Shown: in pieces, positions 14,838-27,200 of the stretch
Layout: every line of letters begins with the position of its first letter
Numbering within the stretch: position 1 is the first letter of the stretch
DNA from: Bacillota bacterium
GTDB taxonomy: Bacteria > Bacillota_I > Bacilli_A > Erysipelotrichales > Erysipelotrichaceae
Direction of reading: 5' to 3'
NCBI GenBank assembly: GCA_021847325.1
Contig: JAJZTY010000005.1
Location: 1-34,878 of the forward strand
DNA: 34,878 nucleotides
Notes under the pieces: model-generated
What the model saw: the letters and a program-made list of their open reading frames with translations, nothing else
What the model was told of the DNA's origin: nothing
Databases searched by the model: none
Position numbers and translations under genes: made by a program

Positions 14838-15479
14838 TCATCGAACATCTTCTGGTGTTGTGATTTTAATGTTGTCGTATGATCCCTTTACAACTTTAAT
14901 TGGTACATTACTATAACGTTCGATAAGTTGAGCATCATCCGTAGCCTTGAAGTTATCTTCTTGAGCTTGGTGAATACAATCTAATAAAAGACTCGTCTTA
15001 AAAGCTTGTGGTGTTTGTGCATTCTTTAAACACTCACGATTAATGGTCTTTACCACATAACCATCTTTAACTTCTTTAACTGTATCTTTCACATCAATTG
15101 CTAAGAAAGCAGCTTGTTCAGTCTCCATCGCAAGTAATAGTTCATCAATTAATTCAATCGTACAATAAGGACGAGCCGCATCATGGACTAACACAATATC
15201 TTCAGTGACACACATTAAACCGTTATAAACGGAATCTTGACGTGTTGCGCCACCTCCAACATTTACAATTCTTCCCATTTCATGGGTTTGTGTTACCTTA
15301 TGTAAATCGTGTGGATTGGTCACAATTACAAGTTGTTTACATCGCACATCATCCACGAATAATTTAACAGTCATATCTAAAACGGTCATTCCATCTTTTA
15401 ATGGATAAAACACTTTATTATATCCAAGCCCCATCCGTTCGCCTTTTCCGCCTGCTACTATAAGTACCGAATAGTTCAT
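14838..15479 (-). CDS. ispD: 2-C-methyl-D-erythritol 4-phosphate cytidylyltransferase
   Basis: SVLIVAGGKGERMG, GGATRQDSVYNGL, VLVHDAARPY, TPQAFKTSLL, IKITTPEDV. Confidence 0.92.
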   Translation of the reverse strand: MNYSVLIVAGGKGERMGLGYNKVFYPLKDGMTVLDMTVKLFVDDVRCKQLVIVTNPHDLHKVTQTHEMGRIVNVGGGATRQDSVYNGLMCVTEDIVLVHDAARPYCTIELIDELLLAMETEQAAFLAIDVKDTVKEVKDGYVVKTINRECLKNAQTPQAFKTSLLLDCIHQAQEDNFKATDDAQLIERYSNVPIKVVKGSYDNIKITTPEDVR

Positions 15480-15551: not shown

Positions 15552-15580
15552 TTGTTTATGCACAAAAACTAGCCTATAAT
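15552..15580 (+). promoter_or_regulatory. Promoter of the cobalamin-riboswitch operon
   Basis: TTGTTT (15552-15557), 17-nt spacer, TATAAT (15575-15580), directly upstream of the aptamer. Confidence 0.7.
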
Positions 15581-15586
15581 GAAATT

Positions 15587-15736
15587 GCTTAGATTGGTGC
15601 TAACGCATAATAGGGAATTCGCAATAAACGAAGCTGTCCCAGCAACTGTAGATCTGGACAAGAGGAAGTATCCACTGTAAAACGGGAAGGATCCTTGAGG
15701 ATGAACGATCAGCCAGTAGACCTGCCAATGATAAGC
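15587..15736 (+). ncRNA. Cobalamin riboswitch aptamer
   Basis: P1 GCTTA-ATTGG pairs with CCAAT-TAAGC; core TAGGGAA...GCTGTCCCAGCAACTGTA...CACTG...AGCCAGTAGACCTGCC (B12 box-like). Confidence 0.93.
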
Positions 15737-15740
15737 GTTG

Positions 15741-15812
15741 TTTTATCTTCTGGGAACAAGATAAAAAGACATTAGCCTGTCTTTTTTGTACACATCCAGA
15801 TGTGTATTTTTT
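15741..15812 (+). terminator. Riboswitch expression platform: three successive hairpins, two with U tracts
   Basis: H1 TTTTATCTT/AAGATAAAA (15741-15766), H2 AAAAAGACA/TGTCTTTTT + U tract (15763-15787), H3 TACACAT-CCAG-ATGTGTA + TTTTTT (15789-15812). Confidence 0.75.
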
Positions 15813-15833
15813 ATTGTAAAGGAGGCTTAGTTC

Positions 15834-16277
15834 ATGAAGAAAAATTTAGTTCGTATTGGTATAGCAGTTGTCTTATTAGTTGGTTCATTATTTGTATATA
15901 ATCAATTCTTTAGACAAGGAAATGAAGGTTCAAAAGAAGTACAAATCATCTTAACGGTTGATCAAGATGGTCAAGATGTGGTTATTCTAGATGTGACACA
16001 ACGCACAGATGATGAAATGTTAGGCACATTCTTGGAAACTGTACTAAAAGATGAAAATCTAGAATATAACTTTTCTGGTAGTGTATCTGATCCATATGGA
16101 CGATATATTGTCGGAATTGGGGAATATGAGACGAAAGATAGTGCTGTAGGTCCTTGGTGGTTATTTAATTCCACAACCAATAAAGATTGTGTGAGTGCTG
16201 GTTTCTGTCCTGGAATCGATATTACTCCACTTTACGATAAAGACGTATTTACATTTGAATTTACAGCGAGTTACTAA
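15834..16277 (+). CDS. DUF4430 (transcobalamin-like beta-grasp) domain protein with N-terminal membrane anchor; candidate B12-binding protein
   Basis: N-terminal TM segment without lipobox Cys; C-terminal GPWWLFNSTTNKDCVSAGFCPGIDITPLYDKDVFTFEFTA resembles DUF4430; directly downstream of a cobalamin riboswitch. Confidence 0.75.
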   Translation: MKKNLVRIGIAVVLLVGSLFVYNQFFRQGNEGSKEVQIILTVDQDGQDVVILDVTQRTDDEMLGTFLETVLKDENLEYNFSGSVSDPYGRYIVGIGEYETKDSAVGPWWLFNSTTNKDCVSAGFCPGIDITPLYDKDVFTFEFTASY

Positions 16278-16280
16278 TGT

Positions 16281-16784
16281 ATGTTTAATGTCCGTAAACT
16301 CGTTTTATTAGCCTTACTTGCGGCAGGTGCGCTTGCCTTACAAGTATCTCTTTCTTTCTTACCGAATGTGGAGTTAGTCACATTATGGTTTTTAATCATT
16401 GGATTAAGTTTAAGTTTTAAGGAGAGCGTCATTGTGGTATTTGTGTTTACTCTTCTTGAAGCGTTAGTCTGGGGATTTGGAGATTGGGTATTAGGTTATT
16501 TATGGATATGGACAGTTTGGATTATCATGATTCGTTGTTTTAAACCAATCTTAAAAGACAAAACACATTTATGGGCGCTGCTGGGTGCGTTCTATGGTTT
16601 TGTCTTTGGTTTTCTATTTGCGGCTCAACATGCTCTCCTATATGGCCTTAATATGGGGATAGTTTATTGGATTCGGGGCATAAGTTTTGACATTATCCAC
16701 GCTTTCTCGAATTATAGTCTTATACTAATTTTATTTACACCGATATTAAAGGTGTTTAATAATTTAATAAGAAAGTGGGGTTAA
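16281..16784 (+). CDS. ECF transporter S-component-like membrane protein, candidate cobalamin/corrinoid specificity subunit
   Basis: 167 aa, about six hydrophobic segments, size and topology of an S component; position in a cobalamin-riboswitch operon. Confidence 0.7.
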   Translation: MFNVRKLVLLALLAAGALALQVSLSFLPNVELVTLWFLIIGLSLSFKESVIVVFVFTLLEALVWGFGDWVLGYLWIWTVWIIMIRCFKPILKDKTHLWALLGAFYGFVFGFLFAAQHALLYGLNMGIVYWIRGISFDIIHAFSNYSLILILFTPILKVFNNLIRKWG

Positions 16785-16785
16785 T

Positions 16786-17250
16786 ATGCCAGTCACAACT
16801 AAAACAGGAGATCGTGGTTTTACAAGTATTAAAGATGGACGTGTTTCTAAGGATGAACCCGTTATTGATGCGCTTGGAAATTTAGATGAGTGCAGTAGTT
16901 TAATCATCCATATGCAAGCTCAATTGGAGCTTGATAAAGAACCTTGGGAAAAGATTGTCAAGGAATTGTATGATATATCCGCTTATGTCGCAGGCTATAA
17001 GAAAACGATTGATTTAGAGGATAGTATTAAACGTTTAGAGACGTTTATTGAAGCCAATCAATCTCGTTATTCTAACTTTATTTATCCATTTAACCAAAAG
17101 AAAGCTGCTTTCTTACACTATGTTAGAACGGTTGTAAGAAGAGCTGAAAGAAGCTTAGTTAAGGTGAACGAAACACAGCTTATTGATACAGCTGTTTTAC
17201 AATATATTAATCGATTATCTGATTATTGTTTTGTGAATGAATTAGTTTGA
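16786..17250 (+). CDS. PduO-type cob(I)alamin adenosyltransferase
   Basis: TKTGDRGFTSIKDGRVSKDEPVIDALGNLDECSS and VRRAERSLV...YINRLSDYCFV. Confidence 0.9.
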   Translation: MPVTTKTGDRGFTSIKDGRVSKDEPVIDALGNLDECSSLIIHMQAQLELDKEPWEKIVKELYDISAYVAGYKKTIDLEDSIKRLETFIEANQSRYSNFIYPFNQKKAAFLHYVRTVVRRAERSLVKVNETQLIDTAVLQYINRLSDYCFVNELV

Positions 17251-17332
17251 TGAAATATTGAATGTAAACAACTTTCAGAAATTGAACTTAATTTTGTATG
17301 TTAGAATTGAAATTACAAAAAGGGGTGTTTTT

Positions 17333-19849
17333 ATGAGCTATACACAATCAACCATAGAAAAATTGAACGCGGATATCCGACATAACTTTCATCATATCTT
17401 TCCAATAGAGAATGAATTTAAATTAACTCATGCAGGTGTGAGTCGTTTAGTTATGTTAGATCGATATTCCCAAAAGGATCGTAGTTTAAAAACACTGGGT
17501 GTAAATGATATTGTCGTAACGATTGTTAAGGAAGATCCAAAATTCCCATCACGTGGGATTGGTTTAGTTCTTGATGTCGATTATGAACATGAGTATGTCA
17601 CGCTTAAACTTGAAGAAGAGTTTAGAGCATCATTAGAGAACGAAGTTGAAGCAAGTACTGGAATTATTACACGTCCATTTAAACAAGTGGATAAGCCATT
17701 AGAGATATTTTATGAACAAATAGCGAAACGTGTTGGTAAATCATTAGCTTCGACTGAATTATCAGAAGATTTTAGAGATCATTATGGTAAAGTGTTTGCG
17801 GAAGAATTAGCTGAAATGAATGTCATTCCTGCAGGTCGTGTTTTATATGGTGCAGGATCTCAAACTCAAGTAACGTATTTTAACTGTTTCGTTATGCCAT
17901 TTATTCATGACTCTCGTGGTGGTATTTCCAATCATCGTAAAGAAGTTATGGAGATTATGTCACGTGGGGGTGGTGTTGGGACGAATGGTTCTACACTACG
18001 TCCTAAATCAGCGCCTGCTAAAGGGGTTGGTGGTAAGTCTAGTGGTGCAGTGAGTTGGCTAAATGATATTGCGAATCTAACGCATCTTGTGGAACAAGGC
18101 GGTTCACGTCGTGGTGCACAGATGATAATGTTAGCGGATTGGCATCCAGATATTATTGAATTTATTATCTCGAAGATGCAAAATCCTAAAGTATTGAAGT
18201 GGTTAATCGAAAATTCAAAAGATGAACAAATCAAATATGAAGCAGAGAAGAAATTAAAATTCGTACCTCTCAGTCGTATTGATAAAGAAATATATGAATC
18301 ATTAGCAGACAATAAGAACGTACCAGTTCATGTATCTGATTATGCTCGTGAACAATTGGCAAATGGTGGAACCTTAAGTGTATCAAATCCTGAATTCTTA
18401 TCAGGTGCTAATATATCCGTTACATTGACTAAAGATTTCATGGATGCGGTTAAGAGTGATTCTAACTTTGATTTACGTTTCCCTGATCTTGAACATTATA
18501 ATCCTGAACAGAAGGCTACTTATGATGAACATTGGCATGAAGTAGGTGATGTTCGGGAATGGGAAGCTCTAGGTTATCCTGTTAAAACATATCGCACTAT
18601 TCGTGCACGTGATTTATGGGATTTAATTAGCTTCTGTGCAACCTATTCTGCAGAACCTGGTATCTTCTTTATCGATAATGCGAATGAAATGACCAATGCG
18701 AAAGCTTATGGACAAAAAGTTGTCGCAACAAACCCTTGTGGTGAACAACCATTAGCGCCATATTCAGTATGTAATCTAGCTGCGATAAATCTTGCGAACT
18801 TTGTGGATCGTAAGACAGGTGAAGTTTTATATGAAAAACTCAAAACGACCGTTGCGGTTACCGTTCGTATGCAAGATGATGTTATTGATGATACACCTTA
18901 CTTCCTAGAACCTAATAAGAAACAAGCTCTTGGCGAACGTCGTATTGGTTTAGGGGTTATGGGTTTACATGATTTACTTATCTGGGCTCGTAAACGTTAT
19001 GGTTCTCCTGAATCGATTGAAACAATTGATTTAGTGTTCAAGACGATTGCGGAAACTGCTTATAGTACTTCCGTAGAACTTGCTAAGGAAAAGGGTTCAT
19101 TCCCATTCTTAGAAGATCGTGAAGCATTTATTAATTCTGGATATATGAAGACATTAGATGAATCTATACGTCAAGATATTCTAAAATATGGTATTCGTAA
19201 TTCTCACTTATTAACAATCGCTCCTACTGGTTCTACTGGAACCATGGTTGGGGTTTCTACAGGTCTAGAGCCTTACTTCTCCTTCTCTTACTTTAGAAGT
19301 GGAAGACTCGGTAAGTTTATCGAAGTTAATGCGAAGATTGTGGAAGATTGGTTGGAACTCAATCCTGGGTATACTAAACAAACACTTCCTGATTACTTCG
19401 TAAGTGCTATGGAATTAACCCCAGAGGAACATGCGGATACACAATGTGCCATTCAACGTTGGATTGATTCTTCCATATCTAAAACAGTCAATGCGCCTCG
19501 TGGATTCTCTGTTCGACAAGTCCAAAAGATTTATGAACGTCTCTATGATGGTGGCGCTAAAGGTGGTACCGTTTATGTGGATGGTTCACGTGATTCTCAA
19601 GTTCTATCGTTATCCAATGATGATGAAAGCAACTGGGCTCAAATGGACATCGTTCATGACTTTGGTATTAACGTAAAAGAAAAACAAGTAGAAGAGAAGA
19701 AAACGGATTTAAGAGCTGACCGTCAAGATCGTAATATCGGTGTTGAGGTTGGGGATATCTGTCCGATCTGTTTAGAAGGTACTGTTGAAGAAATCGGTGG
19801 ATGTAATACCTGTACCAACTGTAATGCACAGTTGAAATGTGGTCTATAA
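17333..19849 (+). CDS. nrdJ: Adenosylcobalamin-dependent (class II) ribonucleotide reductase
   Basis: NCFVMPFIHDSRGGI, RGGGVGTNGSTLRP, NPCGEQPLAPYSVCNLAAINLANFV, APTGSTGTMVGVSTGLEPYFSF, C-terminal Cys-rich CPICLEGTVEEIGGCNTCTNCNAQLKCGL. The ORF track opens at 17258 with a TTG; the ATG at 17333 has an SD (AAAAAGGGG) and is preferred. Confidence 0.95.
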   Translation: MSYTQSTIEKLNADIRHNFHHIFPIENEFKLTHAGVSRLVMLDRYSQKDRSLKTLGVNDIVVTIVKEDPKFPSRGIGLVLDVDYEHEYVTLKLEEEFRASLENEVEASTGIITRPFKQVDKPLEIFYEQIAKRVGKSLASTELSEDFRDHYGKVFAEELAEMNVIPAGRVLYGAGSQTQVTYFNCFVMPFIHDSRGGISNHRKEVMEIMSRGGGVGTNGSTLRPKSAPAKGVGGKSSGAVSWLNDIANLTHLVEQGGSRRGAQMIMLADWHPDIIEFIISKMQNPKVLKWLIENSKDEQIKYEAEKKLKFVPLSRIDKEIYESLADNKNVPVHVSDYAREQLANGGTLSVSNPEFLSGANISVTLTKDFMDAVKSDSNFDLRFPDLEHYNPEQKATYDEHWHEVGDVREWEALGYPVKTYRTIRARDLWDLISFCATYSAEPGIFFIDNANEMTNAKAYGQKVVATNPCGEQPLAPYSVCNLAAINLANFVDRKTGEVLYEKLKTTVAVTVRMQDDVIDDTPYFLEPNKKQALGERRIGLGVMGLHDLLIWARKRYGSPESIETIDLVFKTIAETAYSTSVELAKEKGSFPFLEDREAFINSGYMKTLDESIRQDILKYGIRNSHLLTIAPTGSTGTMVGVSTGLEPYFSFSYFRSGRLGKFIEVNAKIVEDWLELNPGYTKQTLPDYFVSAMELTPEEHADTQCAIQRWIDSSISKTVNAPRGFSVRQVQKIYERLYDGGAKGGTVYVDGSRDSQVLSLSNDDESNWAQMDIVHDFGINVKEKQVEEKKTDLRADRQDRNIGVEVGDICPICLEGTVEEIGGCNTCTNCNAQLKCGL

Positions 19850-19852
19850 CAT

Positions 19853-19880
19853 AAAGTGTTTCGAAAGAAACACTTTTTTT
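19853..19880 (+). terminator. Intrinsic terminator after nrdJ
   Basis: AAAGTGTTTC-GAAA-GAAACACTTT-TTTT. Confidence 0.9.
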
Positions 19881-24032: not shown

Positions 24033-25925
24033 TCATCTAAATTTTCTATCATAGAGCAAGGCTGCATTTAATACAATTAATACAGATCCTGCATTGTGAA
24101 CAAGTGCTCCTGCAATAGGATTAAGTAAGCCAAGAACAGACATGCTTACTGCAATTACATTTATTATCATAGACATTGTAATATTAAACTTTATCGTATT
24201 TATCGTAGCCTTAGATAATCTTTTTAAATAGGAGATATTTGTTAAATCATCATTCATCAGTGCGATATCTGCAGCCTCTATCGCAATATCACTTCCCATA
24301 CTACCCATTGCGACCCCAACGTGTGCTGTTTTTAAGGCTGGCGCATCATTAACCCCATCTCCAATCATACAAACAATATGACCTTCTTTTTGAAGCAACT
24401 CTATTTTACTAACTTTTTCATCTGGTAATAAATCAGAGTACACAGAACTTATCCCAACACTTTGTGCAATATGATTTGCGGTAATCGTATTATCACCAGT
24501 TAACAATATAGTATTAGTCCCTAACTCTTTTAAATTGCGAACCATATCTAGTGCATTTAATCGAATAGTATCAGCTAATGAAATAACTCCAACACAATTA
24601 TTATTTATACCAACGAGAATTGTCGCTTTGCCCTCACTTCGATATTGTTCCAACTTATCGTAAACTATTTGTTCAATAGTAATACCTAAACTTAATAAGT
24701 ACTTTTCATTACCGCAGATTACATTATATTCATTTACTTTTGCTTGAACACCTTTTCCTGGTATCATTTCAAATTGAGTTGAACTTAAAACATCGATTCG
24801 TTGATTTCGAGCATACTCAACAATTGCTTTAGCAATCGGATGTTCACTTTTTGATTCTGCAGATGCTGTTAAGGATACTATATCTTCAATCAACACGTTG
24901 TTAAATGAAGTTATTTCATCAACGGTTAACTTCCCGTGAGTAATGGTACCAGTTTTATCAAACGCTATCGTATCTACATGTCCCATATTCTCTAAAGCAA
25001 TACCTGATTTAATGATGATACCACGCTTTGTAGATTGACCGATTGCAGCAACTATTGAAGTTGGGGTTGCTAATGATAACGCACATGGACAGAATACAAT
25101 TAACACTGTTACAGCACGATTAAGGGCACCAGTTGCATTTACTCCTAGAAATAATGCAATAAAATAAGCACTTATTGCTATTAGCAATGCAATTGGTACT
25201 AACCAAATTGCCCACTTATCTACAATTCTTTGGGTAGGAGCTTTATTATTTTCAGCTTCTTTTACTAAATTTATAAGTTTTTGCAAAGATGAATCTTGCC
25301 CAACATTGGTTGCTTCAATATCAATTGATCCAAAACAATTAACAGTTCCACAGAAAACTTTATCACCAACAGATTTATCAATAGGTAATGATTCACCTGT
25401 CACAATTGATTGGTCGACAGAAGTATTTCCATTCACAATAAGACCATCTACAGTGATAGCTTCACCTGGTAAAATTCTTATAATATCTTTAACTTTAATT
25501 TCATTAAATGGGATAATTTCTTCAACTTCTTTTCCGTGTATTACTTTAATGCGTCTTCCTTCTGTTGGAGTTAATGAGATTAAATTCTCTAACCCTTTTT
25601 TAGCACGATTGATGGTTAGATCTTCTAGGATTGCACCAATAGCCATAATAAAAGCTACTTCACCGGCAGCGAATATTTCACCAATATAGATTGATGCTAT
25701 CATTGCAATAGAAATCAGAAGCGCAGAAGATATCCATTTTTTATAAATTAATCGTGTAATTGCGAGATACAGTAAAGGGTAACCTGAAATTAATATTGTG
25801 ATCCAGGCTGGATCAAATGCTAATTTCTTTCCGCTAAGTAATAATAATAAACTTACAAGCAAACTGATTCCTGATACAATAGTCATCTTTAATCCTGAAA
25901 AATAATCACTAATATTTAATAACAT
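24033..25925 (-). CDS. P1B-type heavy-metal translocating P-type ATPase without N-terminal metal-binding domain
   Basis: CPCALSLATP, AFDKTGTITHG, MIGDGVNDAPALKTAHVGVAMG, HP motif SEHPIAKAI, last TM GALVHNAGSVLIVLNAALL. Confidence 0.94.
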   Translation of the reverse strand: MLLNISDYFSGLKMTIVSGISLLVSLLLLLSGKKLAFDPAWITILISGYPLLYLAITRLIYKKWISSALLISIAMIASIYIGEIFAAGEVAFIMAIGAILEDLTINRAKKGLENLISLTPTEGRRIKVIHGKEVEEIIPFNEIKVKDIIRILPGEAITVDGLIVNGNTSVDQSIVTGESLPIDKSVGDKVFCGTVNCFGSIDIEATNVGQDSSLQKLINLVKEAENNKAPTQRIVDKWAIWLVPIALLIAISAYFIALFLGVNATGALNRAVTVLIVFCPCALSLATPTSIVAAIGQSTKRGIIIKSGIALENMGHVDTIAFDKTGTITHGKLTVDEITSFNNVLIEDIVSLTASAESKSEHPIAKAIVEYARNQRIDVLSSTQFEMIPGKGVQAKVNEYNVICGNEKYLLSLGITIEQIVYDKLEQYRSEGKATILVGINNNCVGVISLADTIRLNALDMVRNLKELGTNTILLTGDNTITANHIAQSVGISSVYSDLLPDEKVSKIELLQKEGHIVCMIGDGVNDAPALKTAHVGVAMGSMGSDIAIEAADIALMNDDLTNISYLKRLSKATINTIKFNITMSMIINVIAVSMSVLGLLNPIAGALVHNAGSVLIVLNAALLYDRKFR

Positions 25926-26075
25926 AATGATTTTCTACCTATTTATGATACACTCTATTCAGTATCTTATATATTGTACCTTATTTATAGTATGTTTATT
26001 ATAAATTATGAAGAGTCAAAAGTATTAATATATACAGTATTGAACATTATTTAACATTTGTCTATTGGAGGATAT

Positions 26076-26645
26076 ATGGATCGAAGACAATTAAAAACCA
26101 AACAATCTATACTTAGTGCTTTTAGCCAACTTTTGTCATATAAGAATTATTCTAAGATAACGGTTCAAGATATTATTGATGAAGCTAACATTGGTAGAAG
26201 TACTTTCTATTCACATTTTGAAACTAAGGATGCATTATTAAAGTCTATTTGTGAAGAAATATTTGAACATGTTTTCTCTGATAATCTTGATAGTGAAAAA
26301 ACACATGATTTTTCATATTCAAATGGCGATATTCATTCGATGATAACTCATATTTTGTATCACTTAAAAGATAACAAGAATAATATTATAGGAATACTAA
26401 AAGGCGAGAGTAGTGAGATGTTTATATTTTTCTTTAAACAATATCTTAATGAAAGAATTATTTCAAAAATTCTCATTTCGCAAAATAAACAAAATAGTAT
26501 ACTACCCTTTGATTTTTTGACGAATCATATTTCGGGTAGTTTTGTAGAAATGGTTCATTGGTGGATCACAAATGATATGAAACAAAAGCCAGAAGATTTA
26601 TCCTTTATGTTTATGAGTGTTATATCCCCAATATTTAAGGGTTAA
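26076..26645 (+). CDS. TetR/AcrR-family transcriptional regulator
   Basis: MDRRQLKTKQSILSAFSQLLSYKNYSKITVQDIIDEANIGRSTFYSHFETKDALL. ORF track opens at a TTG (26058); ATG at 26076 follows GGAGG. Confidence 0.92.
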   Translation: MDRRQLKTKQSILSAFSQLLSYKNYSKITVQDIIDEANIGRSTFYSHFETKDALLKSICEEIFEHVFSDNLDSEKTHDFSYSNGDIHSMITHILYHLKDNKNNIIGILKGESSEMFIFFFKQYLNERIISKILISQNKQNSILPFDFLTNHISGSFVEMVHWWITNDMKQKPEDLSFMFMSVISPIFKG

Positions 26646-27066
26646 TATGTGACATTTGCTTAAAATATGAATAAAGAGCATCATATAAATGAAATTCGCG
26701 CTCTAAAGTTACATTATCATTTTCAGCGTTTAAACGATAACCTGTTGCGAAAACATCTAATGCATATGCTAATGCATTTTCATTCCCTCTATCTGTATCC
26801 GCAAATCTAACAATTTCTTGTAGTTTTACTAACGCTATATCATTTGTTAAATTATATTTTTTTACGATCGCATCAAATGAACAATCATCACCATGATGCC
26901 CAAGTTCTACACCTTTCATGTCAAATGGTATACCGTCTAGTATAGTCAGTGGATCTGTATCTTTTGGTACAAATACAAATTCTGCATCTTTATCCACAAA
27001 ATTCTTAATCAACCAAGGACATGCAACTCTATCCACATGTACATGTTCGCGTGTTACCCATTTCAT
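26635..27066 (-). CDS. Stand-alone ChrB-like (chromate resistance protein) C-terminal domain protein
   Basis: MKWVTREHVHVDRVACPWLIKNFVDKDAEFVFVP; ATG at 27066 follows AAGGAG. 11-bp convergent overlap with the TetR gene. Confidence 0.8.
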   Translation of the reverse strand: MKWVTREHVHVDRVACPWLIKNFVDKDAEFVFVPKDTDPLTILDGIPFDMKGVELGHHGDDCSFDAIVKKYNLTNDIALVKLQEIVRFADTDRGNENALAYALDVFATGYRLNAENDNVTLEREFHLYDALYSYFKQMSHINP

Positions 27067-27200
27067 TATTTGGTTCTCCTTAAAGGAATCTGAGTTCATT
27101 TAAGTATAAACACTATATTTCAAATTATACAAACTATTTGATAATTATTTAAATAGTTACTCTTTATTCTACTTACATATTTGATATTATTCCAAGTAAT

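Follow-up and report, generated by a model that had tools for sequence, protein, structure and literature searches.

Genes predicted to acquire and activate vitamin B12 share a locus here with the gene for a B12-dependent enzyme of DNA precursor synthesis. The locus lies in a window of 34,878 nt (the whole stretch of DNA that was analysed) from an incomplete Erysipelotrichaceae MAG (1.8 Mb, 81% complete). An earlier note had read it as one promoter, one cobalamin riboswitch and one terminator bracketing a complete path from extracellular corrinoid capture through import and activation to use, possibly dedicated to DNA precursor synthesis. After the riboswitch, four genes and a terminator follow on one strand:

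15834-16277, + strand: cbrS-like gene (provisional name), predicted membrane-anchored DUF4430-type protein, 147 aa
16281-16784, + strand: cbrT-like gene, ECF transporter S-component, 167 aa
16786-17250, + strand: PduO-type cob(I)alamin adenosyltransferase (PF01923, 1e-37; TIGR00636, 114.4 bits, cut-off 108.45)
17333-19849, + strand: nrdJ, AdoCbl-dependent class II ribonucleotide reductase (RNR), 838 aa (NF005991, 1382 bits; TIGR02504, 553 bits)
19853-19880, + strand: intrinsic terminator of the operon, 10-bp hairpin at 19853-19876 (-11.3 kcal/mol, z -3.2) and a T run

The two enzymes are what the note had taken them for: PduO matched both family models, and the NrdJ scores exceeded cut-offs of 854 bits (NF005991) and 400 bits (TIGR02504). 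Intergenic gaps are 3 nt between the first and second genes, 1 nt between the second and third, and 82 nt between pduO and nrdJ. The closing terminator was likewise confirmed, and hairpin-plus-T sequences, judged by eye, also lie 3' of nrdJ in relatives. A generic promoter and terminator scan reported fewer promoter-like sites than in shuffled sequences and missed A+T-rich hairpins; it was not counted as evidence. The ORFs seen in the window agree with the view that it holds no other B12 gene.

The case for the import step was strengthened. The S-component protein, searched singly, gave no useful Pfam or NCBIfam match; a profile of 23 relatives had CbrT (PDB 6FNP, E = 2.3e-20) as its sole PDB match, and PF12822 was matched by five members of the same alignment. 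CbrT, within the ECF-CbrT complex, imports cobalamin and cobinamide (PMC5997447). This corrinoid-type match supports placing the protein in the CbrT family and, as judged from sequence profiles, supports the uptake role that had been proposed for it. Import also needs an EcfA-EcfA'-EcfT module, which is encoded on another contig (G000:C20; TIGR04520 and TIGR04521 ATPases with a CbiQ-type T component), a separation from the S gene as in group II ECF transporters. The path called complete is right in outline, but it draws on components from outside the window. Because searches of the genus did not detect CobS and gave FecCD matches too weak (19-34 bits) to be accepted as BtuC, no other B12 route was identified there. 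One MAG carries two S-component loci (G140:C47 and G140:C61), possibly reflecting strain mixture or duplication.

The gene set itself is already known: because a similar cluster, nrdJ-cbrS-cbrT-pduO, has been published for Lactobacillus delbrueckii (PMC5997447), the locus belongs to a known kind. Both clusters unite a CbrT-type S-component, PduO and NrdJ and share the use of a group II ECF module, whereas the order here is cbrS-cbrT-pduO-nrdJ, and it is for the Erysipelotrichaceae locus that we describe a riboswitch and a promoter-like element, P2, in front of nrdJ.

Across relatives, the first two genes form the most constant part of the arrangement. Among named loci fetched by their S-component, all 80 have a DUF4430-type gene as the immediate upstream neighbor of the S gene. 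Of the 22 closest family loci (L003-L024), all but L017 show the full four-gene order, bearing out the co-occurrence on which the earlier note depended. PduO and NrdJ also followed in 18 of the first 19 named loci (L062-L080; exception L068), and NrdJ was not found within roughly 6 kb on either side in the other 61. In some other genera an adenosyltransferase (PF01923) adjoins the S gene instead (L041 and L059). Because the DUF4430-S pair is widespread and is followed by PduO and NrdJ only in Erysipelotrichaceae-type loci, gene neighborhoods indicate that the predicted capture and import functions are a widespread core to which activation and use were added in Erysipelotrichaceae. Individual loci depart from this plan: L017 and L068 are close relatives with DUF4430-type and S genes and without adjoining PduO and NrdJ, while in L029 the DUF4430-type, S and NrdJ genes are adjacent without PduO, with a short gap before nrdJ.

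What the constant partner of the S-component does is less certain. Taken singly, the window protein reaches no family model, and no match to DUF4430 (PF14478) was found even at E = 10; in its alignment, 38 of 53 members match PF14478 at E <= 0.01. An AF2 model (pLDDT 90.7) has a helix at residues 3-26 followed by a beta-rich domain, and on this model the protein is predicted to have one N-terminal membrane anchor and an extracellular domain. The 53-member profile matched 3U7Z (5e-37), transcobalamin-1 (1.2e-4) and intrinsic factor (about 1e-3), where 3U7Z is an uncharacterised DUF4430-like structure from Ruminococcus labelled as a putative metal-binding protein. With the predicted model as query, Foldseek matches at E < 0.1 were limited to 3U7Z and the beta domains of intrinsic factor and transcobalamin, the latter at E values of 8.8e-5 to 2.6e-3, and TM-scores by query length were 0.41-0.57. 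The likeness to carrier domains thus comes from the alignment profile and the predicted fold, as distinct from the sequence of the single protein. In human B12 carriers two halves hold cobalamin, and the matched beta domain supplies just one of them. The bacterial protein resembles the beta domain of intrinsic factor, transcobalamin and haptocorrin in predicted fold and, weakly, in sequence profile, and differs from these carriers in having one membrane anchor and no alpha domain.

Extracellular corrinoid capture, as first suggested, is plausible on these fold relationships, with corrinoid as the predicted ligand. Alternatively, the same protein could be a metal binder, or it could assist the S-component by stabilising or gating it. 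In favour of such a reading are the label on 3U7Z and the finding that L. delbrueckii ECF-CbrT supports cobalamin uptake in Escherichia coli, so that the partner is seemingly not obligatory for transport (PMC5997447). Such non-corrinoid roles appear rather unlikely to us given that, 3U7Z aside, every significant fold match is to a cobalamin-carrier beta domain and that the gene accompanies a B12-type S-component in every named locus. Returning to corrinoid capture, a broader proposal can be made, to which we give slightly less than even credence. On this view the DUF4430-type protein would catch B12 at the bacterial cell surface, would share ancestry with the beta domain of the human carriers, and would accompany CbrT-type S-components almost without exception across Firmicutes; in Erysipelotrichaceae it would form part of a circuit of two promoters and two riboswitches that keeps vitamin supply apart from ribonucleotide reduction. 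A literature search found no paper connecting DUF4430 with CbrT. If the protein binds corrinoids, ECF-type B12 import includes a partner dedicated to surface capture, one that shares its fold with the human B12 carriers.

Control of the operon was examined through its leader, which comprises the following elements:

15552-15580, + strand: P1, putative promoter read from the sequence, -35 TTGTTT (15552-15557), 17-nt spacer, -10 TATAAT (15575-15580)
15579-15743, + strand: cobalamin riboswitch aptamer, RF00174, 76.5 bits (E = 2.4e-17; gathering score 31.5)
15743-15812, + strand: expression platform, probable attenuator, with P13 hairpin (15743-15764), H1 (about 15763-15786), H2 (15789-15806) and T run (15807-15812)

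The riboswitch reported earlier is thus well above threshold, and a TATAAT-like -10 sequence immediately 5' of the aptamer also occurs in relatives. Operon leaders share a common plan in which a P13 hairpin with loop CUGGG is followed by two hairpins, the second of which precedes a T run; H2 and the T run were present in all 12 leaders examined by alignment. The L5 sequence CCCAG (15638-15642) is able to kiss L13 (CTGGG, 15750-15754), and both were kept in 17 of 17 operon leaders examined. Kissing between L13 and L5 is a feature of repressing AdoCbl riboswitches. From these features the leader reads as a repressing attenuator, with the OFF direction deduced from its sequence. An activating riboswitch, with NrdJ induced by AdoCbl, would suit a consumer gene, yet we regard it as very improbable: the same leader also governs the uptake genes, the downstream hairpin and T run resemble a terminator, L13 and L5 could form the kissing contact known from repressing riboswitches, and no computed result favours the ON direction.

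A repressing leader would leave nrdJ in an awkward position, and the gap in front of it (17251-17332) contains a further element:

17297-17307, + strand: P2, putative promoter, extended -10 element TATGTTAGAAT, conserved in front of nrdJ

The core TGNTANAAT occurred in 19 of 21 distinct pduO-nrdJ gaps, compared with 0.63 expected in shuffles, and the remaining two carry TGNTATTAT. It sits 34-65 nt 5' of nrdJ and was found in none of 39 pduO genes. These 21 gaps are related and so do not represent independent cases; the block is nonetheless conspicuous, as the rest of the gap sequence has diverged and aligns poorly. No -35 was recognisable for P2, and we take the element to fit a Gram-positive extended -10 promoter. 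Given this conserved element, nrdJ probably also has its own promoter and, with it, transcription that bypasses the riboswitch.

The earlier note's promoter was recovered as P1, while its claim of a single promoter and transcript is not supported in that form. A single riboswitch-controlled four-gene transcript, with nrdJ wholly under B12 control, would account for the shared strand, the 1- to 3-nt spacing of the first three genes and the position of the terminator after nrdJ, with none before it. We consider it unlikely, because relatives keep the pduO-nrdJ gap at 52-100 nt with TGNTANAAT in nearly all distinct versions, and because a single transcript under an OFF switch would let AdoCbl shut off its own consumer. 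The cost would be high where NrdJ is the only RNR found: the genus yielded no class I small subunit, and nrdD (encoding the B12-independent class III RNR) was found there only in G000 and G100, so that NrdJ is the only RNR detected in G025 and G073 (99% and 98% complete, respectively). A second promoter at P2 would account for the presence of an essential AdoCbl-dependent enzyme in a supply operon that AdoCbl represses.

Elsewhere in the genome, a second cobalamin riboswitch (100.6 bits; G000:C46:2651-2823, equivalent to L001:1501-1673; also L156) lies about 70 nt before nrdD, a pairing also seen in G100, G034 and G026. Its leader differs from that of the operon, and no clear terminator was seen there. 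A B12 riboswitch before nrdDG has been described in delta-proteobacterial genomes that also have NrdJ (PMC545781); the present case is alike in placing a class III RNR under a cobalamin riboswitch alongside NrdJ and differs in occurring in Erysipelotrichaceae and in adding a riboswitch-controlled supply operon. The genome also encodes an AdoCbl-dependent glutamate mutase (GlmS, GlmL and GlmE) and a 210-aa protein with a B12-binding domain (PF02310; L153:2054-2686) and no NCBIfam match, a possible corrinoid user or sensor. The supply is therefore not for NrdJ alone, and the idea of a line dedicated to DNA precursors is not supported.

Overall, we think it likely that the locus is a CbrT-type B12 salvage-and-use operon, repressed from P1 through its riboswitch, with nrdJ also transcribed from P2 and nrdD under the second riboswitch. 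Its computed components are the gene families, their order and conservation, the riboswitches and the conserved P2 element. In this model, the membrane-anchored DUF4430-type protein would catch corrinoid outside the cell and pass it to the CbrT-like S-component, which would bring it into the cell by way of the shared EcfA-EcfA'-EcfT module, whose genes lie on another contig; PduO would then convert it to AdoCbl for use by NrdJ and also by glutamate mutase. Binding of AdoCbl to the leader riboswitch would end P1 transcription early, such that supply genes would be made only when AdoCbl is short, and transcription from P2 would keep nrdJ from being lost when it is plentiful. Under the same plentiful conditions, the second riboswitch would lower nrdD. 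Most likely, then, AdoCbl turns off both supply and the alternative RNR while nrdJ retains basal expression, where we infer the DUF4430-type ligand, the OFF direction, promoter activity and transcript boundaries.

Two further features were seen in the window outside the operon. Upstream and divergent lies an IspD-like cytidylyltransferase ORF, recognized by eye (14838-15479, - strand), which recurs as a neighbor in many relatives (L005, L006, L011, L015, L022 and others). Further downstream (24033-27099, - strand), a protein with a ChrB C-terminal domain (26635-27099) is encoded near a P-type ATPase (24033-25925).
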